This document shows positions 16,110 through 32,280 of a stretch of DNA of 64,000 nt, one piece after another. A program made the position numbers and the translations under genes. Origin of the DNA: Mesorhizobium shangrilense (GTDB lineage Bacteria > Pseudomonadota > Alphaproteobacteria > Rhizobiales > Rhizobiaceae); assembly GCF_040537815.1 (NCBI RefSeq), contig NZ_JBEWSZ010000002.1, positions 854,760 through 918,759 of the forward strand. Direction: 5' to 3'. The notes beneath the pieces are model-generated. The model saw only the letters and a program-made list of their open reading frames with translations, was not told the origin of the DNA and ran no database searches. How positions within the stretch are numbered: the first letter of the stretch is position 1; each line of letters starts with the position of its first letter.

Positions 16110-16822
16110 TCATCGTTGCTTTTTATTGCGGTCGATACACAGGGATGCCAGTTCGATATGCGGCGTCCGAAACGCGACCTGCTGAAGTGTGCGACGATAG
16201 CGATCGTTGCAGCGGCAGGCGCGCTCACGCCATTACGACCGATCAACGACCGTGTAGGTCGTTTCGATGGTCGGAGGAACACGGGACCGAGCAGCCGAGC
16301 CATTTCGAGTGGAGGGAGAAACGACATCGCCACAATTGCGTCGCCGGCGAACCCTCTGCATTGCCACAGCGCGGACGCAACCCAGAAGGTTTCAGCGATC
16401 CTGTTCATTGAGATGACTCCGTTTTCCCCGAAGCGATGGGCCATTGATATTTCCCGCGCATTGCCGCTCGAATACATATTCGTAAGGTGCCGTGGTGCCT
16501 TGGCTGGCGCATTGGATAAGTCGCGTTGCGGATAGGGAAGGGGCATTTCTCGCCCGCGCGATGATACTTCTGGATGGCAGCACAAGCGCTCGACGTCCCG
16601 CCTTTCGGGCGGCGGCTCAAAAGACTCGCCTGGCTGCCTTCAATGATATCGCCAATCACCGCGGATAGTGCCGATTCATCCCCGAGAAACTGCCCCAACC
16701 ATGGCGTCAAGCACGCGATCGTGCTCAAGAACGTCGTCGTTAAACGCGAAGTCGGCGTTGGCCGCCAGTATCGAGAAGGCAAGCAGCGTCCTCCTGAACT
16801 GGATGCACGGCTTTGATTTCGG
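16110..16822. other. Gene-poor stretch with a possible frameshifted remnant
   Basis: No confidently identified gene in about 710 bp. On the minus strand at about 16690-16815 a coding-like run reads FRRTLLAFSILAANADFAF...DAMVG. It appears to continue in another phase as QFLGDESALSAVIGDIIEGS (about 16615-16680). Together these look like a frameshifted small protein of unknown family. A second minus-strand frame at 16103-16585 could encode up to 160 residues but shows no recognisable domain. I would treat the whole stretch as decayed. Confidence 0.35.
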
Positions 16823-17035
16823 CTATCGCTGCTTGTGAGCAGCCCTATAGAGGCTCTCGATCAACAGCACTACGCAGCCCAGGAGCAGAGACCCTCCACC
16901 GAGGAGCGGCGAGACAATGCTTGTTTTCACCGCGGCCGTGACCAGCGCGATCAGTATGACGACAAACAGCGCCAGGCTGCCGTCGTCGATGAACAGGCCC
17001 AGGAATTCGGAGATTGCGGTACGGATGACTTTCAT
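16823..17035 (-). CDS. Small membrane protein linked to the COG4280 gene
   Basis: A protein of 70 residues with two hydrophobic segments (about 18-38 and 42-62), acidic residues between helix starts (LFIDDGSLALF) and a basic C-terminus. It overlaps the end of the upstream COG4280 gene by 4 bp (ATGA-type), so the two are probably translated together and may form a complex. I do not recognise a named family. It is the last gene in the operon B run. Confidence 0.7.
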   Translation of the reverse strand: MKVIRTAISEFLGLFIDDGSLALFVVILIALVTAAVKTSIVSPLLGGGSLLLGCVVLLIESLYRAAHKQR

Positions 17036-17790
17036 GGCGTATTGGCCTCAAGTTTGGCGGCATAAGTGCCGCGAAGAATGCGGATGGCGACGAAGGCGAC
17101 CACAGCAAGGATCACCATGATCCCTAGAATCGCCAGATCGGCTCCCGGCCACGCCGCGCCTAGACCTTCGCCGGTCCAGAAGATGCCGAACGAGGTCAGC
17201 ATCAGCCCTACAACGAATTTGAGGGTGTTCTCGGGCACAGTTGACAGCGGGCGGTGGATAACGAGGCCCAACACGATAACCAGGACGCAGGCGGCCGCGG
17301 CGCCAAGGCTGGCATAGCCGAGCAGGCCGTTTCCAGCGCCGACCGCGATCACGATGAAGACGACTTCGACGCCCTCGAGCAGCACAGCCTTGAAGGCCGT
17401 CAGCCCTGCCAGGAAGTCGGCACGACGGTCGGAGGCCTGCCGTTGCAAGGCGTCCGTCTCGGCAGCGAACGCTTTCGCCTCGTCGTGGAGCGCTATGTAT
17501 CCGGAGGCGCGCAGGATCGCCTTGCGTAGCCAGCGTATGCCGAACAGGATCAACAGAACGCCGACGACATATTGCAGGAGCTCGATCGGGATCTGGCCGA
17601 GCAATGGTCCGAGCACGATGATGAGCGCCGCCAGAACTGCAAGCGCCAGCCCTGTTCCGACGAAAGCGGGCCGCCAACTGCGCGACAACCCGACGGCGAG
17701 GATGATGGTGAAGGCTTCAACGACCTCGACGAAGGAGCCGAGGAACGACGCGGTGACTGCCGATGAGATGGTGGTTATGTTCGTCATCAA
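17032..17790 (-). CDS. COG4280-type predicted membrane protein, possible metal/ion transporter
   Basis: Polytopic protein of 252 residues with about seven hydrophobic helices. Two similar acidic motifs occur, one per half: SFVEVVEAF (Glu 22 and 25) and LLEGVEVVF (Glu 139 and 142). This internal repetition of Glu-containing helices recalls FTR1 and GDT1-type transporters, though the motifs differ. Between the halves is a charged cytoplasmic loop (about 100-125). The gene follows the operon B ATPase by 36 bp and is coupled to the small membrane gene. Its role next to an ABC importer is not known; a secondary transport or export function is inference. Confidence 0.75.
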   Translation of the reverse strand: MMTNITTISSAVTASFLGSFVEVVEAFTIILAVGLSRSWRPAFVGTGLALAVLAALIIVLGPLLGQIPIELLQYVVGVLLILFGIRWLRKAILRASGYIALHDEAKAFAAETDALQRQASDRRADFLAGLTAFKAVLLEGVEVVFIVIAVGAGNGLLGYASLGAAAACVLVIVLGLVIHRPLSTVPENTLKFVVGLMLTSFGIFWTGEGLGAAWPGADLAILGIMVILAVVAFVAIRILRGTYAAKLEANTP

Positions 17791-17826
17791 GGTTTTCCCA
17801 CAAAGGTAAAAATGGCCACCAGATGC

Positions 17827-18888
17827 TTAGTTCGAAAGCACGGTGCAACGGTCTGGCGGCAGCGAGAATTCGATCACGGTGCCCAGGTTCTCGCGGGTGG
17901 GCCAGTCCAGGCGGATGATGTCGGTCGAGACCTTGATCATCAGCCGCCAGCAGCGGCCCTGATAGGCGCTGTCGATCACTTCGCCGCAAATCCTGTTTTC
18001 GGGATGGCTGGCCGCGGGCCGGCCATCCTCCGGCCGGACGACAAGCACGCCATCGCCGCTCACGCCAGGCGAGCGATGGCGTAGCTTGAGCGTGCCACCT
18101 TCGGCATGGAAGGCGTCTTTCTCGGTCCATCCCTTGAGCAGGGAGAAACCACCGAGGAACTGTGCCACGAACGCATTGGCCGGTGCCTCGTAGATCTCCT
18201 GCGGCGTTGCAAATTGCGCAATCGTGCCGCGATCCATGACGGCGAGGCGATCCGAGACGGCCATGGCTTCCGCCTGGTCATGTGTGACATAGATGGCGGT
18301 GATGCCCTCGGCACGGATCAGCCGCACCATCTCGGAGCGAAGATCGTCGCGCAGCGCGGCGTCGAGGTTGCTGAGGGGCTCGTCGAGAAGCAGAATCTGC
18401 GGCCGAGCGGCCAGACACCGGGCGATCGCGACGCGCTGCTGTTGTCCACCCGAGAGTTGGCTTGGCCTTCGCCCCCGCAAGGAGCCGAGACGCGTTACAT
18501 CGAGCGCATGATCGACGCGCCGCTTGATCTCATCGCTCTTCATGTGTCGGGCCTCGAGGCCGAAGCTCAAGTTCTGCGCCACCGTCATATGCGGCCACAA
18601 GGCGTAATCCTGGAAGATCAAGCCGATCTGCCTGTGCTCGGCCGGCACGCGGCGGCGCTTCGACCAGACCGGATCGCCCATTAGGTAGATCTCGCCGCTA
18701 TCTGGCGTTACCAGGCCCGCGATGGCCCGCAGCAGTGTGGTCTTGCCTGAACCGCTCGCACCGACGAGCGAGACGACTTCGCCTCGGGCGACCACGAGGT
18801 CCAGGGACGCGAGCACGGTCTTGTCACCAAGCATCTTGACCAGGTTGCAGCATTGGAGGGCAGAAGGCAGCGAAATCGAGGACGTCAT
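17827..18888 (-). CDS. ABC importer ATP-binding protein (operon B)
   Basis: Protein of 353 residues, a paralogue of the operon A ATPase. Walker A GASGSGKT at 43-50, Q-loop FQDYALWPHMT, signature LSGGQQQR, Walker B ILLLDEP, H-loop VTHDQAEA, and a C-terminal TOBE-like regulatory domain. The start is ATG 18888, 3 bp after the permease stop. It belongs to the ferric iron/2-aminoethylphosphonate branch of import ATPases. It energises the permease encoded directly upstream. Confidence 0.92.
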   Translation of the reverse strand: MTSSISLPSALQCCNLVKMLGDKTVLASLDLVVARGEVVSLVGASGSGKTTLLRAIAGLVTPDSGEIYLMGDPVWSKRRRVPAEHRQIGLIFQDYALWPHMTVAQNLSFGLEARHMKSDEIKRRVDHALDVTRLGSLRGRRPSQLSGGQQQRVAIARCLAARPQILLLDEPLSNLDAALRDDLRSEMVRLIRAEGITAIYVTHDQAEAMAVSDRLAVMDRGTIAQFATPQEIYEAPANAFVAQFLGGFSLLKGWTEKDAFHAEGGTLKLRHRSPGVSGDGVLVVRPEDGRPAASHPENRICGEVIDSAYQGRCWRLMIKVSTDIIRLDWPTRENLGTVIEFSLPPDRCTVLSN

Positions 18889-18891
18889 GGC

Positions 18892-20613
18892 CTATGAATC
18901 TCCTTGCGACAAAGCATCGGGTCTCCTGGCAAGGGAGGTGATCGCGCCGATTGCAGCGACGACGCCAAGGGTGGCGATGGCAAGCGCGCACGCGACGGCG
19001 TCGCGGCCTTGGGTGAAATCGTCGACGATGACCACGGGGACAGGCGGACCTGCTTGCGGAAGCAGGAATTGCGACATCGGCAATTCGAAGATCGAGCGGA
19101 TGGTCGTGACGCCGAAAGCAATCAGGATGGCGCTGCCGATAAGCGGCAGCACCACCTTGACCAGATGGCGGCCGGGTGAAGCGCCGGCGAGGCGCGAGGC
19201 TTCATGCAGCGACCCGCCTAGACGCCCCAGTGCCGACCACATCAAGATCAGGCAATAGGGTAGCGCCGTTGCCGCGTAGCCTATGATGAGAAGCAGCCGC
19301 GATCCGTAGAGCGGCACGTCCTTGAAGCCAGGAAGGCGGTCATAGACGAGGATATAGCCGAAGGCGAGCACGATACCCGGCAGCGCCACCGTCGTCAGGG
19401 CGAGGCCCGACGCCACGAGGCGTGTCGTGCGACTGGCGAGCGATATCTGATAGGCGAAGACCAGCCCGAAGGCGACGGCGAGCACGGCGGCGGCAAGACC
19501 GTAGACCACGCTCCAGACAAGGCCCTGGCCGGGTATGCTCGAAACATCAAAGACTGTCCGGACCGCAGCGAGCGAAAAATTGGACCGGGCAAGACCACCG
19601 CCGAGCGAGACGGTGAGCGAGCGCAGGACGATCGCTATCAGGGGGAGTACAGCCGAGCCTATCGTAAAAAGCGCCATCAGGGCCAGCGCCGGCGCCTGCC
19701 AGGGGCCAAGGTGGAAGCGGGCAAGCGAACGATTGCGACCGGTGACGAAAGTCGTCGTGCGATCGCCGCCCATTAGGCCGGCGACCACGATCGAGCCGGC
19801 CACGAGCAGGACGAGAACCAGGGCCTGTGCCCCCGCGGAAGCGAAATCAACGGGATAGTTCGCGGTCGCGGCGTAGATATTGTAGGTGATCAGCCCGAAA
19901 TTCATCGACCGCGCGATTGTCGTCGCAATACCGAAATCGCCGACGACCTCCGCGAAGGTCGTGAGAAGCGCCAAGGCAATGGCCGGCACGAGCATAGGCA
20001 ATACGACCCGCAGCACGATCCGCCACGGTCCAGCCGAAGCGACACGCGCTGCGTCGATGAACTCGCCGCCGAGCCCCTCAAGGCGGGATCCGACGATGAA
20101 GTACGGTATGGGAAACAGTGAAAAAGCCATCACCATCATCAGCCCAGCCGGGCCGAAGAAGGCACTGCCGGTTGCCGGACTGACGAGACCAAGGCCAACG
20201 AAATATCCGCCCGGCGACATCAGGAGCACCCAGGCAAGCCCCTTGAAATAGCTCGGCGTTGCGAACACCACCCAAGGCAGGGCGGAAAAAGCGCTCTTGC
20301 CGCGAATGTCGGTCAATGCGAGCAGGAGCGCCAGTGCCGTGCCGACCACGGTTGAAAGGACCGCGCCGACAACGCCGAGCACCACTGTATCGATGATGCC
20401 CCGCGCCAGACGGGGCGAGGTGACAAGGTGGTTGATGGCATCAAGCGAGGGGACGAAGCTCGGCCCTGCAAGGTCGAACAGCCCCGGCAGGAAAGCCTGC
20501 ACCACAACCAGCCCAAGCGGCAGGCCGATCAGGATGAAGGCGACCGCCCAAAGCGCCGGGGCGGCGACGCCGCTGCCCCAGCGCTCTACGGAGATGTCAA
20601 ACGCACGCGCCAT
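18892..20613 (-). CDS. ABC importer fused permease (operon B)
   Basis: Inner-membrane protein of 573 residues with two fused permease modules. EAA loops are visible as EFIDAARVASAGPWRIVL in the first half and SLHEASRLAGASPGRHLV in the second. Similarity to the operon A permease runs along the whole chain, for example TPSYFKGLAWVLLMSPGGY against the equivalent in A. The size is close to the PhnU2-type permeases annotated for 2-aminoethylphosphonate. It lies 38 bp after the binding protein stop and 3 bp before the ATPase. Confidence 0.92.
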   Translation of the reverse strand: MARAFDISVERWGSGVAAPALWAVAFILIGLPLGLVVVQAFLPGLFDLAGPSFVPSLDAINHLVTSPRLARGIIDTVVLGVVGAVLSTVVGTALALLLALTDIRGKSAFSALPWVVFATPSYFKGLAWVLLMSPGGYFVGLGLVSPATGSAFFGPAGLMMVMAFSLFPIPYFIVGSRLEGLGGEFIDAARVASAGPWRIVLRVVLPMLVPAIALALLTTFAEVVGDFGIATTIARSMNFGLITYNIYAATANYPVDFASAGAQALVLVLLVAGSIVVAGLMGGDRTTTFVTGRNRSLARFHLGPWQAPALALMALFTIGSAVLPLIAIVLRSLTVSLGGGLARSNFSLAAVRTVFDVSSIPGQGLVWSVVYGLAAAVLAVAFGLVFAYQISLASRTTRLVASGLALTTVALPGIVLAFGYILVYDRLPGFKDVPLYGSRLLLIIGYAATALPYCLILMWSALGRLGGSLHEASRLAGASPGRHLVKVVLPLIGSAILIAFGVTTIRSIFELPMSQFLLPQAGPPVPVVIVDDFTQGRDAVACALAIATLGVVAAIGAITSLARRPDALSQGDS

Positions 20614-20651
20614 AAATAGATTGTCCTAAGCCGCAGTTCGAAGCGATTGCC

Positions 20652-21692
20652 TCACGGAACGAACTGGTCGCGGAACCATTGCTTCCAGGCCGCCTCATTC
20701 TTCGCTGCGACATCGTCATCGAGGATTGCCCAGGACGCGGTGTTGTCGACACGCGCACCGTTGCCCTTGATGCCCGTGATCAATGGCGCGAAGTAGCCAT
20801 CGCCGCCGTCGGTCGTCAGCATGGCCTTCTGGCCCTCGGTAGTCAGCAGGAACTGAATGAACGCCTTTGCTGCCTCCTCATGTTTGCTGGCTGTCGCGAT
20901 ACCGGCAGTCGAGGGAAGCGCGGTCACGCCTTCGCTGGGATAGACGACCTTGATTGGCTCGCCCTTGGCTATCAGATCGTAGATCGTGCTGTCCTGCTGG
21001 ATGGCGATCTTCGCATCGCCGGAAATGACGGCGCGATTGACCGTTTCACCACTCTGAAGACCGCTTAGCGCCTTGTTGGTGAGGGTTTTCTCAAGCTGGC
21101 CCTGTCCCTTGTCGACGCCGACCGTCTGAAAGTAGCCGGACAGCCACTGGAAAGCAGGACCCGAGAGGTTCGGATCCTTGGCGGCGACAGAGCCGGCGAA
21201 ATTCTGGAGGTCGGCCCATGATGTCGGTAGAGGCACCGTACCGATCTTCTTGGTATTGACTTCGATTGCCGTCGTCGACACCGAGATCGGGAAAAAGGCC
21301 TCGCTGCCGGGAACAAGTTTTTTGCCAAGCGCGGTATAATCTGCCTTAGTGGTGAGGCCATGTTCCGGCTTCAGGATACCCTGTTGAGCGAGCCGGCTCA
21401 TGACGGCTGAGCCTTCGACCCATAGGATGTCGAATTTGGGATTGTTGCCTTCTGCCGACACCTTGCCGAGAAGCTCGCCGGTGCTCAGAGACACCAGATT
21501 GACGTCGATGCCGGTCTTCTCAGTGAAGGCTTTGGCCGCCGCGTCCGCCGTGTCGAGCGCGGTATAGAGTACGAGGGTCTCGGCCTGGCTTGCCTGCATA
21601 GCGGTGCCCAGCATCAAAGCCGACGACAGTGCGGTAAGAATAATACTCTTCATCATTGTCTCCATACATGTAGTGTTGGATATAATTGGCAT
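20652..21692 (-). CDS. ABC importer substrate-binding protein (operon B)
   Basis: Periplasmic binding protein of 346 residues as drawn. ATG 21656 (MMKSIILTALSS) is a better start because a clean signal peptide begins there, with cleavage after ASQA. The mature protein has LVLYTALDTADAAAKAFTEKTG, FDILWVEGSAVM and STTAIEVNTKK, the same landmarks as the operon A protein. Upstream the DNA is AT-rich (21657-21735), which may hold a promoter or attenuating element between the regulator and this gene. The ligand is unknown; a neighbouring phnM gene suggests a phosphonate or phosphate ester. Confidence 0.9.
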   Translation of the reverse strand: MPIISNTTCMETMMKSIILTALSSALMLGTAMQASQAETLVLYTALDTADAAAKAFTEKTGIDVNLVSLSTGELLGKVSAEGNNPKFDILWVEGSAVMSRLAQQGILKPEHGLTTKADYTALGKKLVPGSEAFFPISVSTTAIEVNTKKIGTVPLPTSWADLQNFAGSVAAKDPNLSGPAFQWLSGYFQTVGVDKGQGQLEKTLTNKALSGLQSGETVNRAVISGDAKIAIQQDSTIYDLIAKGEPIKVVYPSEGVTALPSTAGIATASKHEEAAKAFIQFLLTTEGQKAMLTTDGGDGYFAPLITGIKGNGARVDNTASWAILDDDVAAKNEAAWKQWFRDQFVP

Positions 21693-21743
21693 ATTAACCT
21701 TACATTATATTTATGACAGTACTTTAAAGGAAAAGTCATATTA

Positions 21744-22679
21744 TCAAATCTTGCTTCGGCCTATGCCGCGCTTGAGCCAGGCCTTGTCTATTGTTCCCCG
21801 CAGAACGCCAAGCGACTCGAGGCTGGCGATTGCCTTGGCACGATCGCGCGCCGCTAGGCCGACGATCATCGCCTCGATCAGCACCATCGTGCCGCTATGC
21901 ATGGCCAGATGATCTGCCCGTCCACGCGGCACCGGCAGGACTTCCGCCATGTGTTCGGCGACGAAGGGGCCAAGACTGTCGCTAACAAGGACAATGGGGT
22001 TGCCGAGCTGGCGGGCGCGCTCGATGACGATCTCGATCTCCCGATAGAGGGGGGCATAGGCGATCATCAGAACGGCATCGCCTTCGCCAAGCGCCAGCAG
22101 CCGGTCTGCGAGTGCCACTCCCGAGGCCGAAAGCGCTGTCGAAGCGAGGCCGATGCGGTTGAACTGCAGGCTCGCATAGTCGGCGAGCGCGCCCGACGGG
22201 CCGATCCCGAAAACATGCCGTCTTTTGCCGGCAAAGAGGATATCGATCGATCGTGAGAAGCTGGCCTGAAAGGACGGGGCCTTCATCGCCGCGAGCGCTT
22301 CCTCGTGCATGCCGATCACGTGGTCGAGGACCTGTGCGCTGTTGTCGCCCGCATCTTCGAGCGTGAGGCGAAGCCGGGCGCTCGGCGTCGGGGTGGCAAT
22401 GATGTCGGCAAGCAGCGTCTGCCGCAGATCGGACAGGCCATCGAAGCCAAGAGAGCGAACAGTCCGCACAACGGTTGCATCACTCGTTCCCGCCAATGCC
22501 GCGATTGCAGCCGCCGATCCCAGCAGAGCCGCATCTTTCTGCTCGACCAGACAGCGCGCCACACGCTGCTCGGCGGGTGACAATCGACTAACGGACTCGG
22601 CCACACGATCGGCGAATGGCGCCCGGTCGGGAGCCGGAACAGCAGCCAAAGGCGGTGACGCACCCATTTTGACCCTCAT
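21744..22679 (-). CDS. RpiR family transcriptional regulator (operon B)
   Basis: Regulator of about 311 residues from ATG 22679 (MRVKMGAS); ATG 22668 is also possible, and the frame extends to 22745. The HTH_6 domain contains TSDATVVRTVRSLGFDGLSDLRQTL. The SIS domain follows with FGIGPSGALADYASLQFNRIG, matching operon A closely. SIS domains sense phosphorylated sugars, consistent with control by a phosphorylated intermediate. An exact inverted repeat (22688-22714) lies just before ATG 22679, a strong reason to prefer this start and a candidate autoregulatory site. Confidence 0.9.
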   Translation of the reverse strand: MRVKMGASPPLAAVPAPDRAPFADRVAESVSRLSPAEQRVARCLVEQKDAALLGSAAAIAALAGTSDATVVRTVRSLGFDGLSDLRQTLLADIIATPTPSARLRLTLEDAGDNSAQVLDHVIGMHEEALAAMKAPSFQASFSRSIDILFAGKRRHVFGIGPSGALADYASLQFNRIGLASTALSASGVALADRLLALGEGDAVLMIAYAPLYREIEIVIERARQLGNPIVLVSDSLGPFVAEHMAEVLPVPRGRADHLAMHSGTMVLIEAMIVGLAARDRAKAIASLESLGVLRGTIDKAWLKRGIGRSKI

Positions 22680-22687
22680 GTCGAGAT

Positions 22688-22714
22688 CACTACAGAGCTT
22701 CAGTATCTGTAGTG
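22688..22714. promoter_or_regulatory. Inverted repeat upstream of rpiR B, operator candidate
   Basis: Perfect 8-bp arms CACTACAG and CTGTAGTG separated by 11 bp. It sits 9 bp upstream of the preferred ATG of the RpiR regulator and overlaps the last codons of the small secreted ORF. A half site, CACTACATG, also occurs on the minus strand upstream of the binding protein gene (about 21664-21672). RpiR proteins bind such inverted repeats as dimers; the pairing here is inferred. Confidence 0.55.
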
Positions 22715-22926
22715 AATGTAACGGGATGATGACGGATCCCGACAAAGGGCGCGATGATTGGGATGGGTGCCCCTGGGGGCGCCACCGAGCAACCGAACGA
22801 TGGACCGCCTGCTGACATATCGAAACCCATGTGCCCGGTTGCGACGAACTTCACCGGTTCTGCAGAAACGGGAAGGGCGGAGGCAAGCGCTATGGCGAGT
22901 GCGGTTGCGATAGTGCGGATCTTCAT
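22690..22926 (-). CDS. Small secreted protein of unknown function
   Basis: A frame of 78 residues with a clear Sec signal peptide: basic start MKIRTIA, hydrophobic core, cleavage after LPVSA near residue 22. The mature part, about 56 residues, has one Cys and several Gly/Pro and does not match a family I know. It could be a genuine small periplasmic protein or the stump of a longer binding protein whose body was lost. It ends 10 bp before the preferred rpiR ATG, so it would be the first gene of operon B. Confidence 0.5.
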   Translation of the reverse strand: MKIRTIATALAIALASALPVSAEPVKFVATGHMGFDMSAGGPSFGCSVAPPGAPIPIIAPFVGIRHHPVTFTTDTEAL

Positions 22927-23040
22927 TTTCCCTCTGCTGTATAGACAGGAAACTGTTTCCGGCTTACCCGTCTGCACAGCAGATTTGTTCGTGACACTTG
23001 CCCCGCACCTCCCGGCAGCCTCCACTTTTTGAGGAATACA
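22927..23040. promoter_or_regulatory. Divergent promoter region with three palindromes
   Basis: Between the start of operon B and phnM there are three palindromic elements in about 50 bp. CTGTATAGACAG at 22937-22948 resembles the HutC/PhnF-type GntR consensus (T-G-G-T-A-T-A-G-A-C-C-A). GGAAACTGTTTCC at 22948-22960 is a perfect 13-bp palindrome, and TCTGCACAGCAGA at 22971-22983 has perfect 5-bp arms. The GntR regulator at 24210 is the likely ligand-responsive protein for the first. The phnM ribosome binding site is GAGG at 23031-23034. Confidence 0.6.
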
Positions 23041-24213
23041 ATGAACTGGCACATCCAAGGTGGCCGCGTCCTTACCGATCGGAGACTTGCAACAGGAGAC
23101 CTGAGCGTTACGGGGGGAAACCTGACAGAGGTTCGAGCGGCCCACGCACCCGTGATCGATGCCGATGGCCTATTGGTGCTCCCAGGAATCGTCGATATCC
23201 ACGGCGACGGCTTCGAGCGGCAAATCATGCCACGGACAGGCGTCCGTTTCGACACCGCGCTGGCGCTAAAAGATACCGACCGCCAACTTGTCGGCAATGG
23301 CGTAACCACGGCCTTTCATGGTGTCACGGTATCATGGGAGCCCGGACTTCGTTCCCTCGAGGCCGCCGAGCGACTGATCGGCGTGCTCTGCGACATTCGC
23401 GACACGCTTGCCTGCGATACGCGTTTGCATCTGCGCTGGGAGACCTTCGCGCTTGATCAGATGGCGCAGGTCATCAAGTGGCTCTCGCTCGTCCCGCGAC
23501 CGATCATCGCTCTCAATGATCATACGACCGGCTCGGTATTGAAGGGCGCGAGCGCGCGTAAGATCGGTCAAATGGCGGAGCGGTCGAGCTTGAGCCGGGA
23601 GGAATATATGACGTTGCTCGATCGGGTTTGGTCCCGCCGGGACAACGTGGCGATCGCGATCGAGACGCTGGCTGCGACTGCGCGGGCCAACGGCAATGTG
23701 CTTCTCGCCCATGACGAAGCGTCGCCCGAGGAGCGTGCGCATTTCCGCGCGCTCGGCGCAAAGGCCTCGGAATTTCCACTGACAATCGAAACAGCGAAGG
23801 CCGCACGGCAAATGGGTGAGGATGTGATCCTCGGCGCGCCGAATGTCGTGCGCGGCGGCAGCCACAATGGTGCGCTCGATGCCACCGATGCCGTCAGAGC
23901 CGGGCTCTGTACGGTGCTGACCAGCGACTACCATTATCCTTCGCCGCTACATGCGGCCTTCAGGCTGTCTTCGCCTGGTGCGAGCGATTTCCCCTCGATC
24001 TGGGACCTGGTTTCGGCAAATCCGGCCCGGGTCGCCGGTTTCGCGGATCGCGGATCGCTTGTCGCCGGCCGCCGGGCGGATCTGATTCTCGTCGATGCCC
24101 AAGATCCGGCACATCCGCATGTGGTGGCCACCATGGTTCATGGAAGGATTGTCTATTCCTCCGGACTTCTCCAGCGTAGACTGCCTGTCAGCACGCCGAT
24201 TGCCGCTGAATGA
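23041..24213 (+). CDS. phnM: PhnM-like amidohydrolase (alpha-D-ribose 1-methylphosphonate 5-triphosphate diphosphatase family)
   Basis: Protein of 390 residues of the amidohydrolase superfamily, PhnM/COG3454 branch. Landmarks: LPGIVDIHGDGFERQIMPR near the N-terminus (metal-binding region, HGD in place of the E. coli HTD), LNDHTTGS, AHDEAS, then GAPNVVRGGSHNG and TSDYHYPSPLHAAF, all hallmarks of PhnM. In the C-P lyase pathway PhnM removes pyrophosphate from ribose 1-phosphonate 5-triphosphate. No other C-P lyase genes (phnG-L) are in the window, so this is an orphan copy that may act on a different phosphorylated substrate. ATG 23041 has a good ribosome site. ATGA overlap with the GntR gene. 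Confidence 0.9.
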   Translation: MNWHIQGGRVLTDRRLATGDLSVTGGNLTEVRAAHAPVIDADGLLVLPGIVDIHGDGFERQIMPRTGVRFDTALALKDTDRQLVGNGVTTAFHGVTVSWEPGLRSLEAAERLIGVLCDIRDTLACDTRLHLRWETFALDQMAQVIKWLSLVPRPIIALNDHTTGSVLKGASARKIGQMAERSSLSREEYMTLLDRVWSRRDNVAIAIETLAATARANGNVLLAHDEASPEERAHFRALGAKASEFPLTIETAKAARQMGEDVILGAPNVVRGGSHNGALDATDAVRAGLCTVLTSDYHYPSPLHAAFRLSSPGASDFPSIWDLVSANPARVAGFADRGSLVAGRRADLILVDAQDPAHPHVVATMVHGRIVYSSGLLQRRLPVSTPIAAE

Positions 24214-24992
24214 ACCAGGGCCCGAAAATTCCAACACGATACGAGCGCGGCGGCGATGGCCTTCTGGCATTTGACGGACTGGTCTTCCGCCCACGCCGCG
24301 ACACGCCAATCTGGCAGCAGATCTACGATCACATCTTCGGTCTGATTGAGAACGGTTTTCTTTCGCCGGGTAGCCAGCTTCCCGGCGAAACCCATCTGGC
24401 AGAGAAACTCGCGGTCACCCGCATCACGCTTCGCCGGGCGCTGCAGCAGTTGCAGCATGAGGGTCACCTCACCGCTCGCAAGGGTGTAGGCATCTTCGTG
24501 CGCAACCTACCCTCCACGTTCACGGTTCGCGAAGGCCGGCGATTTCTCGACAATCTCGCAGCCCCCGGCCAGGAAATCGGCACCCAGACACTGCTGATTG
24601 TCTGGGAACCGGCTGGACCGGCCGTGGCGGAACGGCTGCGCCTCGCACCTGATACCGCCATTATCCGGCTATGCCGGATCAGAATCTCCGGTCAGCAACC
24701 GGTTTACGTCAATACCAAGGTCTTTCCGGCCCACCTCTTTCCCGATTTTGAGCAGACATACGACATGTGCCAGTCGGTCACCGATGTTTTTCACGCGCAT
24801 GGGGTCAACTACCGGCGGATCGAGACGCGCATCAGCGGCGGCTTTGCATCCCCCGATGAGGCGGAAATCCTGCGGCTGACGCCCGGAACACCAGTATTCC
24901 GCACCAACTCCGTCAACGAGGACGGCAACGGCATACCAATCGAATGGACCCGCGGTTGCTGGCCGCTGACCTCCGTCGAATTCGTGTTCTGA
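24210..24992 (+). CDS. phnF: GntR family regulator, HutC/PhnF subfamily
   Basis: Protein of 260 residues. A GntR winged helix at about 32-100 (IWQQIYDHIFGLIENGFLSPGSQLP, then RITLRRALQQLQHEG and GVGIFV) is followed by a UTRA ligand-binding domain (about 110-255) ending in VFRTNSVNEDGNGIPIEW. PhnF-type regulators repress phosphonate-uptake genes. The ATGA overlap with phnM means both are made together. The palindrome CTGTATAGACAG upstream of phnM fits its expected operator. The gene symbol is given by subfamily and context, not by proven function. Confidence 0.8.
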   Translation: MNQGPKIPTRYERGGDGLLAFDGLVFRPRRDTPIWQQIYDHIFGLIENGFLSPGSQLPGETHLAEKLAVTRITLRRALQQLQHEGHLTARKGVGIFVRNLPSTFTVREGRRFLDNLAAPGQEIGTQTLLIVWEPAGPAVAERLRLAPDTAIIRLCRIRISGQQPVYVNTKVFPAHLFPDFEQTYDMCQSVTDVFHAHGVNYRRIETRISGGFASPDEAEILRLTPGTPVFRTNSVNEDGNGIPIEWTRGCWPLTSVEFVF

Positions 24993-25314
24993 TTCGGGCG
25001 CATTGGTTTCAACGACATCGTTACAGGCGACAACGGGTGTTTCCGCGTCCGCGTGGGGCTGATCCATGCGCGGGAATCGGAACACTGATCGCGGATAAGT
25101 TGACCGGGCTATTCAAGGCAGCAGGCAAATCCTCATCGGGAACGGAAAGGGTGGCGCGCAGTCGAAGGGTGAGGTCCGAAGAGCACAAACATCACGCGGC
25201 CGGAACAACTTGCTTCCCGGGATAATTCCATCAGTGCCGCGCAAATCAGGTATCGCGCGCGACGCATGCATCAGCCCGATTTATCGCTCGGATCGCCTGC
25301 CAACCTGGCCTCCG
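24993..25314. other. Intergenic region between convergent genes
   Basis: About 320 bp between the end of the GntR gene (+) and the end of the ABC ATPase gene (-). No gene, clear hairpin with a T tract or repeat is seen. Confidence 0.5.
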
Positions 25315-26052
25315 TCATCCAAATCGCGCCCCGGTCAGCAGCCCCACCAACCTGTCTTCAAATGTATCGAGATCGGCGCCGAGATCCTGCGCAGGGCCGG
25401 AGAACACGAGTTTGCCTGTGGCGACGACGCTGATCCGCGTGCACAGAGTGCGAATCTCCTGTGCATCGTGGCTGCTGAGGAAGGTCGTGACGGCCTCGCT
25501 GGAGGCAAGGTCCCGCAGCAGCTTCCATGTCTCGCGCTTGGCCGGCAGGTCCAAGCCACGTGTCGGTTCGTCCAGGAAAAGCACTTTTGGACTCCCCAGC
25601 AGGGCGCGTGCGATTTCAACGCGGCGCTTCATGCCCGTGCTGTAGGTTCCGATCAACTTGCCGCGGAATTGCTCCGCCAATCCCACGCTGGTCAAACACC
25701 GCTCGACCGTGTCGCGGACATCCTCGATACCCCGGATACGGGCGAAGTAAGCAAGGTATTCGCGGGCCGTCCAATCCGATTGGCTCTCACTCGTCTCGTC
25801 GCTGACGAGACCGATGAGTTTGCGAACGGCCAATGGCTCCGACGCGATGTCGTGACCCCATAGTTTCGCGCTACCCCTTGTCGGTGGAAGCAGCGTCGTG
25901 AGCATTCGGATGGTCGTCGTCTTGCCGGCTCCATTGAGGCCGAGAAAACCGTAAAGTTGGCCTTTTTCTACTTTGAGGCTGATCTCATTGACCGCGACAA
26001 GCGAGCCGAAGCTGCGCGTCAAGCCGGTTGTTTCGAGGGCTAGCTCAGTCAT
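25315..26052 (-). CDS. ABC transporter ATP-binding protein (ABC-2 exporter)
   Basis: Protein of 245 residues: Walker A GLNGAGKTTTIRM at about 38-50, Q-loop region LVSDETSESQ, signature STGMKRRVEIARALL, Walker B KVLFLDEPTRGLD and switch His in LSSHDAQEI. This is the DrrA/NatA-like exporter class. The start is ATG 26052, which overlaps the permease stop as ATGA; the open frame extends 13 codons further but overlaps the permease. It is the final gene of the long minus-strand run that starts with dedA. Confidence 0.9.
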   Translation of the reverse strand: MTELALETTGLTRSFGSLVAVNEISLKVEKGQLYGFLGLNGAGKTTTIRMLTTLLPPTRGSAKLWGHDIASEPLAVRKLIGLVSDETSESQSDWTAREYLAYFARIRGIEDVRDTVERCLTSVGLAEQFRGKLIGTYSTGMKRRVEIARALLGSPKVLFLDEPTRGLDLPAKRETWKLLRDLASSEAVTTFLSSHDAQEIRTLCTRISVVATGKLVFSGPAQDLGADLDTFEDRLVGLLTGARFG

Positions 26053-27491
26053 CGCGTTCGTTTCCAGCGCGTAAGCATTGCAAGGAGGCACAAAAGAGGA
26101 AGGACGGCGCCGATGCCCGCCATCTCGGCAAGCGCGTTGGGCACGTGTGCCTCGACTGCTGCCCTGGCATTAATCGTGTTTGTCTGGGGGCTGCCATCGA
26201 CCACGTACGTGGCGCTGACATCAATCGGATAGCGTATGCCGCCTATATCCCATGGCTGGTTCGGAATCAGGCTGATGGGGATGCGGGCGACCCATCCCGT
26301 TTCGACGCGATGTCCAGCCGCATCTGCGGGTCCGATGCCTGGCGGATAGGTTCGCGTCTCGAGATTGTGCAATAACTCGGTGACGGCTCCCGGCGGGACT
26401 TGGACGTCCAGCCCGCTCTGGCCTGTGACCTGGATTTCCAATCGCGTGAGTCGTTGCTTGCTATCGACTGGCAGAAACAGCAGGAGATCCTGGCGGGTCG
26501 CTTGCCCGACCGGCAATGAAGGCCATTGGTCACGGTTGAGAAGCGTATCGCAGCAAGCCGTGGGAGCGGGTCCATTCGGGTTGACGAGCGCAAGCGTGCC
26601 GCCACCCCGCAAGAACAACCCCGGTATGTCCGGGGCATTGTTTTGGGGCGGCGCATCCTTGTTATAGTTGGTATCTCCGAAGAGCGCGGGGACCAGCACC
26701 AACGCAGCCAGCCCCAGCGCAATAACCACGCGCTGACCCGGGGAGGCTTCCCAGGATTCGACGCCCTGTGCCCGCAGGAATATCCACGCAGCCAACCCAA
26801 GTGATCCAACCACGATCAGGCACAGGCAAATCCATGTCATGATTGTCGAAGCGGGAATGGCACTCGTGGCCAGAGTAAACCCCAGTCCATTCTTGAGGAG
26901 CACAAGTGGGCTGATCAGGGCAACGTGACCTGTGGCAGTCGCGCCATACCCTCGCGTGACCAGCAGTTCCTGCAACGGCACCAACACGGCATAGACAAGC
27001 ATGACACCGACGCCCGTGGCGACGGGCGGCGCTACGCTTCGTCCGATGAACAATACGCCAATGAGGGTGCCGACAGCGACGCAGACGAGCAGGATTCCTG
27101 GCGTCCAAACAAGGTAGCGGTTCAACAGGAACGGCATGCCGACATTGGCCACGTAAACGGCAGCCAGGGGCGCGATGGCGAGATAGTATACGCCCGCCAG
27201 CGTCAGGATGACGAGAGTTTTTGCGACAAACCAATCCTGCCGGTCCACCGGCGCGGTAAAGACGCTTTCGACAAAACGGTTGGCACGCGGGCTTGCGATC
27301 ATTCCGGCCGCCAATGGCAAGAAACAAACCGGCGCAAGGAAGTAACCGATAGTGCCGTAACCATCGAGCCAGCTGTCCTGTGTGGCCACGGCAGCAAGGC
27401 CTCCCAAGCCCAGAAGGACAATCGCCACGCCCATCCATGCGAAGCGGCCCCGCATGACGGCCCGCAGTTCTTCCTTATAGAGTGTTAGCAT
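26049..27491 (-). CDS. ABC-2 type permease with large extracytoplasmic domain
   Basis: Protein of 480 residues from ATG 27491 (MLTLYKEEL). The first ~260 residues hold about six hydrophobic helices of an ABC-2 permease, with the usual FVESVFTAPVDRQDWFVAK loop. A further helix (VIALGLAALVLVPALFG) is followed by about 200 polar residues (from TNYNKDAPPQ) and a last helix LPLLCLLAMLT, which places a folded domain outside the membrane. It pairs with the ATPase downstream by ATGA overlap. The substrate is unknown. The neighbouring glycosyltransferases and PAP2 enzyme suggest a lipid-linked or envelope substrate. Confidence 0.85.
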   Translation of the reverse strand: MLTLYKEELRAVMRGRFAWMGVAIVLLGLGGLAAVATQDSWLDGYGTIGYFLAPVCFLPLAAGMIASPRANRFVESVFTAPVDRQDWFVAKTLVILTLAGVYYLAIAPLAAVYVANVGMPFLLNRYLVWTPGILLVCVAVGTLIGVLFIGRSVAPPVATGVGVMLVYAVLVPLQELLVTRGYGATATGHVALISPLVLLKNGLGFTLATSAIPASTIMTWICLCLIVVGSLGLAAWIFLRAQGVESWEASPGQRVVIALGLAALVLVPALFGDTNYNKDAPPQNNAPDIPGLFLRGGGTLALVNPNGPAPTACCDTLLNRDQWPSLPVGQATRQDLLLFLPVDSKQRLTRLEIQVTGQSGLDVQVPPGAVTELLHNLETRTYPPGIGPADAAGHRVETGWVARIPISLIPNQPWDIGGIRYPIDVSATYVVDGSPQTNTINARAAVEAHVPNALAEMAGIGAVLPLLCLLAMLTRWKRTR

Positions 27492-27597
27492 GGCGCTCCT
27501 GTCTCCTTCCATCGCGCGAATGAGGTCCCGCCGGCGGGCTCGCCCCGGAGAAGCGCGTCGAGCGTCTGGCGCAAGGCTGACATTGTTCGATCACCCA

Positions 27598-28893
27598 TTA
27601 TGACGTTGCCGCGGACATGTGACCGTCGGCATGCTTCAATTCTCGAAATTCGACCTCGAAGGAGGTGCCACCGCCAGGCCTTGCGACACAATGAACATCG
27701 CCGTTGTGGCGTCTCGCAATCTGCCTCACAAGGGCAAGCCCGAGGCCGACGCCCCCTTCCTGCTCGCGTGTTCCGGCCGGGCGGTAAAATGGTTCGAAGA
27801 TGCGCTCGCGCTCCTCGGTGGCGACGCCAGGGCCTCGGTCGCATACCGAAAGCTTGATTGCTACACCTCGACGCGCCAACGACACCTCAATGGCGGTGCC
27901 GCCACCATAGCGACGGGCATTGTCGAGCAGGTTGCGGACAAGCCGACGCAGTAGCCGAGGCTCGCCGAAGACCGTGACTGGTTCACCTTCGAGCGAAGCA
28001 TCGGCTGCCGCGCACTCCTCGGCAGTGATCGCCAGCAGATCGACGGGGTGCATTTCGGTGACGATTTCGAGCGTCTCGAGGCGGCTGGCCAGCAGGATCT
28101 CGCCGACAAGTCCGTCGAGTTCGGCAATGTTGCTTTCGAACTCCTGCCTCAGCCATTTATCTGCCTGTGGCTGTAGCAGCTCCGCCCCCATTCGCAGGCG
28201 TGCAAGCGGAGAACGCAATTCATGCGAAGCGTTGGCGAGCAGCGTTTTATGGGCGGACAGCAGTTCGCCGATGCGCTCCGCCATCCGGTTAAAACTGTCG
28301 GAGAGCGCCGCGACTTCGTCATTGCCGGAGACTTCCACGCGCCTCGACAGGTCTCCAGCGCCGAATCCGTCGACCGCTTTCTTCAATCCTTCCACGCGTC
28401 GGGTCAGGCGGCGAGTGATGGGGTAGGCGCCAATTGCTACTGCAACGAGTGTGGCGCCGAGCAACAGGAAAACGCTCGGGATCGGCTCGTCGTAGTCAGT
28501 GGGACGGCGGAGCACCAGCACGCGCCCGTCCGAGAGTGCAAGTGTCCAAACCCAACCGTCGAGCGTAAGCCGTTCCTTGAAGCTCCTGTCTTTCGCATGC
28601 TCCGGCGGAGGAAGTGGTGCGCCCACCGACGCGACGGACACACCGTCTGGCGAAAAGATGGCGATATCGGCCCGCCCCAGCCGCTTCTGGAGTTGAAGCA
28701 GCGTGGCGGCGAGGTCCGAGGGCACGGCCGTGGATGCAGACATGGCGACCTCGGCCAATGCGGTGTCGATCCCGACGCGATTTCCGGTCTGAACCTCTCC
28801 CAGCACATAGCGCCACAGCAATCCGGCGAGCACGGCGAATACGCAAAGGCTCAGCAGCAGGGCGGCATAGATATGCTGGTAAAGGCGTCTCAT
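27598..28893 (-). CDS. Sensor histidine kinase
   Basis: Protein of 431 residues: two transmembrane helices (about 8-30 and 139-160) around a periplasmic sensor region of ~110 residues, a HAMP linker, a HisKA domain with phospho-acceptor His 224 in NASHELRSPL, and a HATPase_c domain with N-box RNLLDNARRYGGG, G1 DRGPGV and G2 GVGLGLALV. The start overlaps the stop of the response-regulator gene. It lies between that gene and the ABC-2 exporter, so it probably controls the same run of genes in response to an envelope signal. Confidence 0.93.
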   Translation of the reverse strand: MRRLYQHIYAALLLSLCVFAVLAGLLWRYVLGEVQTGNRVGIDTALAEVAMSASTAVPSDLAATLLQLQKRLGRADIAIFSPDGVSVASVGAPLPPPEHAKDRSFKERLTLDGWVWTLALSDGRVLVLRRPTDYDEPIPSVFLLLGATLVAVAIGAYPITRRLTRRVEGLKKAVDGFGAGDLSRRVEVSGNDEVAALSDSFNRMAERIGELLSAHKTLLANASHELRSPLARLRMGAELLQPQADKWLRQEFESNIAELDGLVGEILLASRLETLEIVTEMHPVDLLAITAEECAAADASLEGEPVTVFGEPRLLRRLVRNLLDNARRYGGGTAIEVSLARRGVAIKLSVCDRGPGVATEERERIFEPFYRPAGTREQEGGVGLGLALVRQIARRHNGDVHCVARPGGGTSFEVEFRELKHADGHMSAATS

Positions 28894-29597
28894 TCGATCT
28901 TGTCCGGCCGATCATGATGACGGGCGAAGAGATAACCCACTCCCCGAATGGTCAGGATTTGCCGGGGGCGGCGAGGGTCTTTCTCGATTGCCGCACGGAT
29001 GCGAGAGATGTGGACATCGATGCTACGGTCGAATGCCTCAAAAGGTTCGCCCTTGACCATGTCCATGATCTGATCCCTGGACAGGACGCGGCCGGCATGC
29101 CGGGCGAGTGCGACCAGGAGATCGAATTGATAGCTGGTGAGGCTTTGCTCGGCGCCGTTGACGCGCAACTGTCGTGCCGCCGGATCGATTTCAAGCGGGC
29201 CGAAGCAAAGGAGCTCTTGTTGATGCGGACCCGCGTTGCGACGCCGCAAGACAGCGCGGAGGCGCGCCACAAGCTCACGAGGACTGAATGGCTTGGGGAG
29301 ATAGTCATCCGCTCCGAGTTCCAGGCCAACCACACGATCCGTCTCGTCACCCCGCGCAGTCAGCATGAGTATGGCGGCATCCGAAGTCACTCGAACCCGC
29401 CTACAGACTTCGAGGCCGTCGATGCCTGGAAGCATCAGATCCAGGACGATCGCCGACACACCGCCTCGCGCCAGGCGAGCCAGGCCTTCTTCGCCCGTTG
29501 GCATGTGTTCGACGGCAAAGCCGTTCTGGGTCAGAAAATCCAGGACCATTCCGGCCAGCCTGCGGTCGTCTTCAATCAGCAGTATGAGATCGGACAT
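28890..29597 (-). CDS. OmpR family response regulator
   Basis: Protein of 235 residues from ATG 29597. The receiver domain contains acidic pair Glu-Asp at 9-10, phospho-acceptor Asp 53 in VLDLMLPG, Thr in LTARGD and Lys in YLPKPF. The C-terminal winged helix is of the OmpR/PhoB type, with HAGRVLSRDQIMDMV and DVHISRIRAAIE. It pairs with the kinase downstream by a 4-bp overlap and follows the PAP2-type gene by 19 bp. Confidence 0.93.
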   Translation of the reverse strand: MSDLILLIEDDRRLAGMVLDFLTQNGFAVEHMPTGEEGLARLARGGVSAIVLDLMLPGIDGLEVCRRVRVTSDAAILMLTARGDETDRVVGLELGADDYLPKPFSPRELVARLRAVLRRRNAGPHQQELLCFGPLEIDPAARQLRVNGAEQSLTSYQFDLLVALARHAGRVLSRDQIMDMVKGEPFEAFDRSIDVHISRIRAAIEKDPRRPRQILTIRGVGYLFARHHDRPDKIE

Positions 29598-29616
29598 TTT
29601 TTCGCTTGATGCTCCG

Positions 29617-30333
29617 TCATGCCCATCGCCGCGCGAAGCCCAGTCTGGATAGCTGCCTCCTATTCCTCGCGCCATTGGTCGCGTCGAAGAACTCCCAGTC
29701 TCGCCGGAACAGGAACCTCGCGAGGTCATGGACTCCATAGCTGATGAAGAATGCCGCGAAGACATCGATCGAATAGTGGAGATGACCGAGAAGTACCGCG
29801 ACACCGAAGAGTGCCGTGGCCGCCAGGAAGGCAAATCGCAGCCTCGAATCCTTCCAGAACATCAAGGCGAGAAGAAATGGCGCGCCCGTATGGCCCGAGA
29901 AAAAGAGGTCGCCGCCAAATGTGAATGATTGCATGATTGCGTTCAGGTCGAACGTGCTTCTGGTGGGAAAGGGCCCAATGTGGGTCAGAATAATGAACCC
30001 CGACCTCACAAGAATGAAAAGGGCCAGCCCGTTGAAGACGAAAGGAATGCGCTGAGGTCGCGCAAGCAGAAGGACGCCAACGAACATCCACATGAAAAGC
30101 GGCCCGTCGACGAAGATGAAGTCCACATTCACGACCGGGACGTTGTCGAGAATGATGTCAGTCACTGGATTGCTGACATTCGCCGTCGCGAAGGTTCCGG
30201 CGTAGAAATTGGAAACGATGCTCAGTGCCAGCAGGATCATGCTGAAACCGATATCATAGGCAAGGCGCTTGCCGAATTGGCGTGCAAGCCGACGGGGCGG
30301 CCTGGTGCCTTGGGAAGGTTGCGTGGTTGTCAT
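29617..30333 (-). CDS. PAP2-type membrane phosphatase/phosphotransferase (PAP2_C-like)
   Basis: Membrane protein of 238 residues with about six hydrophobic helices. It carries the two motifs of the PAP2 / sphingomyelin-synthase fold: FFSGHTGAPF (first catalytic His) and HYSIDVFAAFF (second His and Asp). Such enzymes act on lipid phosphates or transfer phospho-head groups. It overlaps the glycosyltransferase gene by 4 bp, so a role in making or recycling a glycolipid or lipid carrier is likely but inferred. Confidence 0.8.
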   Translation of the reverse strand: MTTTQPSQGTRPPRRLARQFGKRLAYDIGFSMILLALSIVSNFYAGTFATANVSNPVTDIILDNVPVVNVDFIFVDGPLFMWMFVGVLLLARPQRIPFVFNGLALFILVRSGFIILTHIGPFPTRSTFDLNAIMQSFTFGGDLFFSGHTGAPFLLALMFWKDSRLRFAFLAATALFGVAVLLGHLHYSIDVFAAFFISYGVHDLARFLFRRDWEFFDATNGARNRRQLSRLGFARRWA

Positions 30334-31100
30334 GGCAGCGGCTTTTGCGGCTGGTCGCGAAAGTCCAGCCAGGATTCGGTGAACGGCTTTTTCAGGAATG
30401 TCGCCCAGAAAAAGTTCATCGCGTAACGCAGCCCGATGCGCGCCACGCCTTCGCCGACCAGGCGCCGTCCGGACGACAACGCGGGCAATGAAAACGTGAA
30501 ATCGACGTCCCCGACTTTGGAAAGGCGGCGGGCGAGTTCAGTGTCTTCGCCATAAAATGCAAAGTTCGGATTGAAGCCGCCAATGCGTACCAACGCGTCG
30601 CGTTTCACGACGAAGTTGCCCCCTTGCATCATCGATCCGACACGCAGGATGTAACGGTTGAGAAGATAACAGACATAGCCGCCGCAATAAAACGCGCGTA
30701 CCAGCGCCCGTGTACGCTTTGGCAGATCATAGTAGACAAGCGGCCCGCTCATGGCGGCGAGCTCGGGATTGGCCGCAAACGCTCGCAGGACCTTGTCTAT
30801 CCATCCCTCGGTAAGGATCGTATCGGCGTCGATGTTGGCGATCAGGTCGCCTGTTGCGACGTGAAACCCTGCGGCGCGGGCACGAACGAGGCCTTTGACT
30901 GGCTCGTCGATGACGAAGATCCCGGGATAAGCCTGCGCTGTCTGACGCGTCTTGTCCGTGCTCGCGTTGTTCACGACAATGATTTCGGCGGCGCATTGGG
31001 ATCGCGCGATCTCAGCGACGATGGCTTCCAGCGTTCGCGGAAGACATGCTTCCTCATTATACGCTGGCACGACAAAGCTGATCTTGATGGCTTCTTTCAT
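30330..31100 (-). CDS. Family 2 glycosyltransferase
   Basis: Protein of 256 residues with the GT-A fold of family GT2: N-terminal ISFVVPAYNEEACLP, acceptor loop VVNNASTDKT, metal-binding DxD-type motif NIDADT and the GGFNPNFAFYGEDTELARR segment. It adds a sugar from a nucleotide donor, probably to a membrane lipid. Its start lies inside the end of the upstream glycosyltransferase gene (44 bp overlap). The stop overlaps the PAP2-type gene by 4 bp. Confidence 0.9.
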   Translation of the reverse strand: MKEAIKISFVVPAYNEEACLPRTLEAIVAEIARSQCAAEIIVVNNASTDKTRQTAQAYPGIFVIDEPVKGLVRARAAGFHVATGDLIANIDADTILTEGWIDKVLRAFAANPELAAMSGPLVYYDLPKRTRALVRAFYCGGYVCYLLNRYILRVGSMMQGGNFVVKRDALVRIGGFNPNFAFYGEDTELARRLSKVGDVDFTFSLPALSSGRRLVGEGVARIGLRYAMNFFWATFLKKPFTESWLDFRDQPQKPLP

Positions 31101-32280
31101 CGCTTGTTTTCCGTTCGATCAAGAGTTGATAGTGATGCTCCCATTGGTCCGCGATCCGTTCCGTGGCGAATTGCTTCACGTAGGAAGCTCCGCCCCGCCC
31201 GAGCCGTGACCGCAAATCCGAATGGCCGAGCAAATCCGCAAGACGATCCGCAAGCGAGGCGACATCGGATGCCTCCACCAGGAAGCCGCGGTCGTTTGCG
31301 ATGAATTCAGGCAGGGCTCTCGCATTCGCGCCGATCACAGGGATGCCGCACGCCATTGCCTGAAGCAGAGCGATCCCCTGGGTCTCGGAGGTGCTCATGG
31401 TCACGAAGACGTCGGACGCCTGGAACAGTTCAGCGAGGTCCGATTTCGGCAGCGTCCCAACGAACCGCACGCTCGGCTGGAGGCAGAGCCGTTGCACGAG
31501 GGCGCGAAGGTGACGCTCCTGACTGCCATGGCCGGCAATGACCAGCTCCGCCGACGGTACCCGCTGCTTCAGCAGCGCGAGCGCATGAAGGATGGGATCG
31601 ATATTCTTCTCTGAACCCAGCCTGCCGGCATAGACGATCGTCGGGCCATGGAGGTGCAGTGCCGTTCTGAGCTTGCGCTTCATCGCCGGGGAGACCGGTC
31701 GGAAGATGTCCGTAGCGATCGGGTTGGAAACGACTTCCAGCGGGCGGCGCAGCCTGTCCTGGCCAAGCTCGTTGAAAACCGACAGCGACGGCGCGGTGAC
31801 AAAATCGCAGCGGTTGTAGTACCAAAGAACGTAGGCCGCTGCGGCATCCATCCCGAATGGCAGATACGAACCGAACGCCTTGATGGCGGTGTGATTTGTT
31901 CCCGCAACAGGAATTCCCAGTCGCCTTCCCGCTAGAAGCGCGCTCAATCCGGCTCCAAAGAAGGTCTGGGTGTGGATGACGTCCGGTCGCGCCGCCGGGG
32001 GCAGACGGAGCCACGAAGCGGGCAGGGGAAAAACCGCTCGCGATTGCTTTGTCGAGGATGGAAACGGCACCGAGTGCAAGCGATGAACGCGGATGCGAGG
32101 CCCCAAATTCAACTCAACGGGTGCTGCGTTGATGCGTTCGAATTCACGACGACCGTAGTGCGGTACGTAGAAGTCGATAGCATGCCCTCGCTGTCCAAGC
32201 GCCTTCGCCAATGCTTCGATCGAGTCCTGGATCCCGCCGATCTCGGGATGGAAATTGTCGGAAAAGATGGCGATGCGCAT
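31057..32280 (-). CDS. Family 4-like glycosyltransferase
   Basis: Protein of 407 residues of the GT-B fold. The N-terminal domain begins MRIAIFSDNFHPEIGGIQDSI, typical of GT4 enzymes, and has an IHTQTFFGAG segment. The C-terminal domain has VYAGRLGSEKNIDPIL and the donor-binding ACGIPVIGANARALPEFI region, with the MSTSETQGI acidic site. The closest named groups are diacylglycerol or phosphatidylinositol glycosyltransferases. The gene is 19 bp after dedA and overlaps the next gene. Confidence 0.9.
   Translation of the reverse strand: MRIAIFSDNFHPEIGGIQDSIEALAKALGQRGHAIDFYVPHYGRREFERINAAPVELNLGPRIRVHRLHSVPFPSSTKQSRAVFPLPASWLRLPPAARPDVIHTQTFFGAGLSALLAGRRLGIPVAGTNHTAIKAFGSYLPFGMDAAAAYVLWYYNRCDFVTAPSLSVFNELGQDRLRRPLEVVSNPIATDIFRPVSPAMKRKLRTALHLHGPTIVYAGRLGSEKNIDPILHALALLKQRVPSAELVIAGHGSQERHLRALVQRLCLQPSVRFVGTLPKSDLAELFQASDVFVTMSTSETQGIALLQAMACGIPVIGANARALPEFIANDRGFLVEASDVASLADRLADLLGHSDLRSRLGRGGASYVKQFATERIADQWEHHYQLLIERKTSDERSHQDQLCRASV

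Follow-up and report, generated by a model that had tools for sequence, protein, structure and literature searches.

In a 64,000-nucleotide stretch of Mesorhizobium shangrilense DNA (the window, which forms the end of contig C2 in a genome of 8.35 Mb), a gene for a PhnM-like hydrolase is coupled to a gene for a GntR-family regulator and stands divergent from an operon for an RpiR-controlled importer, here called importer B. The PhnM-GntR pair is probably an accessory module of the carbon-phosphorus (C-P) lyase system that has lost its own importer in this strain and has a different importer in its place. Its enzyme would be a second PhnM, probably specific for certain substrates, that is controlled by a PhnF/HutC-type repressor of its own and in the usual case supplied by a divergent PhnDCE importer.

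The PhnM-like gene (23041..24213, + strand) starts with ATG and encodes a predicted metal-dependent hydrolase of 390 residues. The protein passed the curated cut-off of the NCBIfam PhnM subfamily model NF011987 (431 bits; cut-off 253) and fell below the cut-off of the PhnM equivalog model TIGR02318 (323.1 bits; cut-off 390.55), on which the canonical PhnM of the same genome, about 30% identical to it, scored 485.9 bits. In a tree of PhnM proteins the window protein and its relatives formed one side of a branch with a Shimodaira-Hasegawa-like approximate likelihood ratio test (SH-aLRT) support of 99; we refer to this group as the HGD subfamily. The HGD metal motif noted in the initial annotation is present in the window protein and invariant across 84 subfamily rows, among which the gene of the Mesorhizobium genome AR07 is counted twice (L110 and L132). 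The motif was rejected as a mark unique to the subfamily because a third PhnM type also has HGD (3/3 rows, one of them from this genome). The copy of this third type (DMHGD) in the genome lies at C1:2926638-2927804, is 35% identical, and follows a sugar-kinase-like gene that we take to be PfkB. In genomes G090, G120, and G128, a low-scoring phnJ was accompanied within 2 kb by PhnM copies of 32-35% identity, perhaps of the third type.

The HGD and canonical types were compared column by column. The 18 canonical rows, eight of which are close relatives, had 128 conserved columns; in the 84 HGD rows, 41 of these were conserved with the same residue, 12 were conserved but different, and 75 were unconserved. 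The residues that both types conserve in identical form were H54, D56, E59, R65, R132, E134, D160, H161, H224, D225, E244-F-P, N268, S274, and D296. This set includes the candidate metal-site residues H54, D56, D160, H161, H224, D225, E244, and D296, an assignment that we make by analogy with the amidohydrolases. The PGxRQF motif of canonical PhnM is not kept in the HGD rows, a canonical Asp is replaced by His at position 93, and the differently conserved columns include N159/M, W133/C, Y299/P, and R232/V. Judged from the alignment, these differences are pointing to a different substrate for the HGD type. A sequence search with the window PhnM as query returned no solved PhnM structure. The HGD PhnM might be an amide or ester hydrolase, deacylase-like in character, that acts ahead of C-P lyase to release a phosphonate from its conjugate, but we consider this unlikely: the fold is general to the amidohydrolase superfamily and canonical PhnM is expected to share it, and the candidate metal-site residues are the same as those of PhnM.

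The link to C-P lyase comes from the distribution of the subfamily. A contig scan found 84 relatives, from which 80 loci were kept, and genes were counted as tblastn matches at E<=1e-8 anywhere in these loci, which span 3.7-19 kb and are in some cases ended by contig edges. PhnD was present in 64 of the 80 loci, PhnC in 72, and PhnE in 69, the latter two counts including more distant ATP-binding cassette genes in the loci; a GntR gene adjoined the HGD PhnM in 49. The usual arrangement places PhnE-PhnC-PhnD divergently from PhnM-GntR. The marker gene phnJ lay inside 14 of the 80 loci and a canonical PhnM inside nine. When whole genomes were searched, phnJ was found in 50/50 of those searched with an HGD PhnM, a figure that is not a probability because the genomes are related, as against 81/121 genomes sampled from the family and 53/289 from the class. 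Nine of the 30 genomes outside that search have phnJ inside the locus itself. A separate canonical PhnM (at least 44% identity) besides the HGD copy was present in all 30 genomes, out of the 50, that were searched for it.

These distributions bear on an alternative in which the HGD protein is a plain isozyme: it would catalyze the same reaction as canonical PhnM, removing pyrophosphate from a ribosyl phosphonate triphosphate, and its only contribution would be extra capacity under a different regulator. The shared candidate metal-site residues and the finding of HGD PhnM with C-P lyase wherever searched are in its favor. However, canonical PhnM was already there in each of the 30 genomes searched, the HGD copy usually has an importer and a regulator of its own, the 12 differently conserved and 75 unconserved columns (PGxRQF among them) set the two types apart, and the HGD protein falls under the equivalog cut-off. 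We regard a plain isozyme as rather unlikely.

The initial annotation had described an orphan PhnM acting independently of the full C-P lyase. Orphan is apt for the window, in which phnG, phnH, phnI, and phnJ gave no match at E<=1e-8, as had been claimed, but not for the genome, since phnGHIJKL lie on the same contig at C2:36342-41389. There, phnJ (C2:37960-38775) was identified by Pfam, the adjacent PhnG, PhnH, PhnK, and PhnL pass their NCBIfam cut-offs, and PhnI was recognized by a tblastn match of 71%; neither PhnI nor PhnJ of this locus gave an NCBIfam match at E<=1e-20. No phnM was matched in the 18-kb stretch around the operon. The operon thus has no phnM beside it, as an argument against independence had envisaged, but a canonical phnM is present elsewhere in the genome, at C1:4428382 between DUF1045 and phnN. 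Together with the 50/50 result for phnJ, these findings speak against independence from C-P lyase.

The second gene of the pair (24210..24992, + strand) overlaps phnM by 4 bp and encodes a 260-residue PhnF/HutC-type regulator. Its GntR and UTRA domains score above the Pfam cut-offs (UTRA, 94.1 bits), and it narrowly passes TIGR02325, the PhnF model (159.1 bits; cut-off 156.8). A putative operator for it, CTGTATAGACAG, lies at 22937..22948 and contains a GTnTAnAC core, which we take to be the consensus type for HutC-like GntR regulators. The core stands at -102 from the phnM start. Across the subfamily, TGTnTAnACA occurs within 300 bp upstream in 48 of the 49 loci that carry the GntR gene next to PhnM (the lone miss is L054) and in none of the 31 loci without one; about 0.012 occurrences per 250 bp would be expected by chance. 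The operator therefore goes with the GntR regulator across loci, and by its sequence it is retained in the window as a putative site. The usual placement of the relatives' pair beside PhnDCE and the matching putative operator here support the earlier view that the module is related to phosphonates and has a GntR sensor.

A remnant of the lost importer is still visible. Between the putative operator and the RpiR gene of importer B is an open reading frame (ORF) of 78 codons (22690..22926, - strand) that is a truncated native PhnD start, with about 33 native codons followed by unrelated sequence. Its residues 3-36 share 71% identity with the start of PhnD at the M. tianshanense locus, and the window DNA matches that locus at 85% from 22827 rightwards, with nothing matching to the left of 22827. 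CTGTATAGACAG lies 10 bp ahead of the start codon of this stub. The 114-bp gap (22927-23040) that had been read as a promoter between the importer operon and phnM separates phnM from the stub, an ORF that the initial annotation did not mention; the distance between the RpiR gene and phnM is 361 bp.

Full PhnD is present in nine of the 11 Mesorhizobium genomes with an HGD PhnM, the window genome included in the 11, and was not found in the window genome or in AR07. The PhnM neighborhood of AR07 is 96% identical to that of the window and joins the middle of the RpiR gene of importer A, a second importer operon of the window, as though window positions 14088-22905 had been excised. The simplest account would be that PhnDCE was lost before the window strain and AR07 split, and that AR07 later lost more. 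A further difference from AR07 lies directly downstream of gntR, where 8.2 kb of the window (25112-33312) are absent and the flanks are contiguous. At the Rhizobium bin RYN_488 locus (7762-8837), the HGD PhnM has upstream of it just the end of PhnE (39 residues, 62%) together with a COG4280 gene, perhaps an independent loss of PhnDCE.

The PhnD stub could mean that the PhnM-GntR pair is itself a relic, decaying after the loss of PhnDCE, beside which an importer landed by chance. The AR07 junction within the RpiR gene of importer A, the decay of a second operator site, and the AR07 counterpart of importer A, which matches only parts of the RpiR and ATPase genes, would agree with such erosion. 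Against this, both genes are intact, and the ratio of nonsynonymous to synonymous substitution rates (dN/dS) between the window genome and AR07 is 0.13 for PhnM and 0.16 for GntR, values that cover the period after the loss if the loss was shared. Both genes are therefore still constrained, and by this codon comparison the window PhnM is still under purifying selection. We doubt that the pair is a relic.

Importer B now occupies the position next to the stub. Its operon (16823-22679, - strand) runs leftward from the RpiR gene, divergent from PhnM-GntR, and has the gene content given in the initial annotation. The RpiR-family regulator (21744..22679, -), with HTH_6 and SIS domains, starts with the ATG at 22679 and is 95% identical to an AR07 copy located elsewhere. 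It is followed on the same strand by genes for a solute-binding protein (20652..21692), a fused two-domain permease (18892..20613), an ATPase (17827..18888), and a membrane protein (17032..17790) that scores above the Pfam cut-off for OFeT_1 and was named COG4280-like in the initial annotation. A 70-residue membrane ORF (16823..17035), called from the reading frame alone, overlaps the end of the COG4280-like gene. By blastn, the cassette as a whole (16831..22734) is colinear with, and 92.5% identical to, a chromosomal block at another place in AR07 (L116).

The adjacency of importer B, PhnM, and GntR in the window had suggested a single conserved unit, a compact pathway for a phosphonate or phosphosugar that would do without C-P lyase. 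A binding protein of the importer-B type was found in 19/146 Mesorhizobium genomes and 4/397 genomes sampled from the order, and the HGD PhnM in 11/146 Mesorhizobium genomes; the two occur together in only two of the 146. Homologs of this PhnM are almost never accompanied by this transporter. One of the two is AR07, in which the binding protein (97% identical) is encoded at a different place from PhnM. Importers of the same type do stand beside canonical DUF1045-phnM-phnN at eight of 24 places, all in Mesorhizobium and one of them in this genome, which lends the compact pathway some support. With the importer elsewhere in AR07 and phnJ in every HGD-PhnM genome searched, however, it is already largely refuted, and we consider it highly improbable.

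The cargo of importer B was considered separately. The initial annotation had connected its permease type with 2-aminoethylphosphonate or ferric iron, and neither assignment was upheld. The best-matching models for a 2-aminoethylphosphonate importer are PhnS2 for the binding protein (99 of 392.75 bits), PhnU2 for the permease (78 of 593.25 bits), and PhnT2 for the ATPase (325 of 457.7 bits), and since all three curated cut-offs were missed, this candidate was rejected. By sequence, the PDB entries that the binding protein matches best are ferric-iron binding proteins of the HitA type. The Tyr-Tyr pair of HitA binds iron. In a pairwise alignment the pair is replaced by Ser-Thr in the importer-B protein, and despite the PDB matches a ferric-iron importer was not accepted and was left open. 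The linkage of same-type importers to phnN was likewise rejected as proof of a phosphonate cargo: it holds at eight of 24 places, another gene intervenes in two of the eight, and in the binding-protein tree the phnN-linked proteins need four changes (starred branches force two), with importer B forming a deep separate lineage. Loci L120 and L131 end too early to be judged.

Other observations on importers of this type were as follows. The window carries importer A, a second RpiR importer operon, at 9889-14806, whose proteins compare with those of importer B at 56% for RpiR, 49% for the binding protein, 42% for the permease, and 59% for the ATPase. A third importer operon of the genome, with a COG4280 gene, directly follows DUF1045-phnM-phnN at C1:4.420-4.438 Mb (L007), and the arrangement is similar in seven congeners. 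Binding proteins resembling that of importer B at 64-67% were found in Rhizobium and A. rhizogenes, and a plasmid search for it returned a single record, at 55%. A gene that we take to encode a flavin-monooxygenase-like protein recurs near the importer operon in five of the 23 loci searched (L118, L119, L123, L127, and L128). At 1862-7307 the window contains ORFs resembling conjugation genes, which we presume to be TrbJ/TrbI-like; the region may therefore belong to a mobile island.

We propose that, in its usual setting, the GntR protein would repress both divergent genes through the site represented here by CTGTATAGACAG until a phosphonate-type inducer arrives. PhnDCE would then import a particular phosphonate or phosphonate conjugate, the HGD PhnM would hydrolyze this compound or its triphosphoribosyl form, and PhnGHIJKL, whose genes in this genome share the contig (C2:36-41 kb), would break the C-P bond. 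Importer B follows the truncated PhnD start and is read in the same direction, so its transcription may now depend on the promoter and operator that once served PhnD. The fuller scenario, in which an RpiR-controlled importer took the place of the accessory module's own and captured the promoter and operator of PhnD, so that substrate supply was naturally rewired, is offered tentatively, as a possibility that we hold at well under even chances.

Several points weigh against the proposed accessory role. The substrate and activity of the HGD PhnM are a proposal drawn from sequence comparison, and importer B is at most a candidate phosphonate carrier. Canonical conservation is overstated because of the eight close relatives among the canonical rows. 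The 50 genomes searched for phnJ were hand-picked from the 80, mostly named isolates with most metagenome bins excluded, and there is little contrast among the genomes sampled from the family: phnJ occurs in 7/7 genomes with an HGD PhnM, called from a single match of 45% or more, and in 74/114 others; G059, G064, G163, and G167, with split PhnM matches of 41-45%, were left unclassed. PhnD is missing from 16 of the 80 loci, and 13 lack both PhnD and GntR; of these 13, five lie inside C-P lyase clusters and the rest have unrelated neighbors or are short. Finally, a second operator site of AR07 and other relatives, located downstream, has decayed to GTCTGCAC in the window, and a search of window positions 22600-23100 gave no sigma-70-like promoter, so that control in this strain is uncertain.

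How bacteria widen the range of C-P lyase is poorly known, although many phosphonates are handled. An alphaproteobacterial second PhnM that comes with an importer and a repressor of its own would define a testable accessory step, and the HGD PhnM was found, where searched, only in genomes with C-P lyase and a canonical PhnM. In the window the importer has gone while PhnM and the putative operator were retained, which allows the role of the enzyme to be asked about without its usual supply.

Among known systems, PhnS2-T2-U2 (TIGR03261, TIGR03265, and TIGR03262) supplies the best-matching models for the importer-B proteins and shares the fused permease, but all three proteins score below cut-off. 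The FbpABC/HitABC ferric-iron importers provide the top PDB matches for the binding protein but differ in the Tyr-Tyr pair. In M. smegmatis, phnDCE is reportedly under PhnF, a GntR-family repressor. The module resembles that system in pairing a GntR-family repressor with PhnDCE, but its regulator is coupled to a PhnM and, in the window, PhnDCE has been lost. Canonical PhnM (E. coli K-12; TIGR02318) has the same candidate metal-site residues and shares genomes with the HGD type where searched; it differs in having HTD in place of HGD and in its PGxRQF motif, and the HGD protein is an extra copy in 30/30 genomes searched, usually with its own importer and regulator. PhnM is described as releasing pyrophosphate from ribose 1-alkylphosphonate 5-triphosphate (PMC10574752, PMC9947105). 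Among the literature matches listed, and in the portions of text available, we found nothing on the HGD subfamily beyond one remark on a gene called phnM1, although prior work may exist. The gene phnM1 was noted in 2013 as a second phnM-like gene of undefined role in a C-P lyase cluster of marine alphaproteobacterial origin, where the authors suggest the use of particular phosphonates (PMC3840354), and a homolog is mentioned in Roseovarius (PMC5649143). Likened by description only, phnM1 shares with the window PhnM the status of an additional PhnM-like gene that accompanies C-P lyase in alphaproteobacteria.

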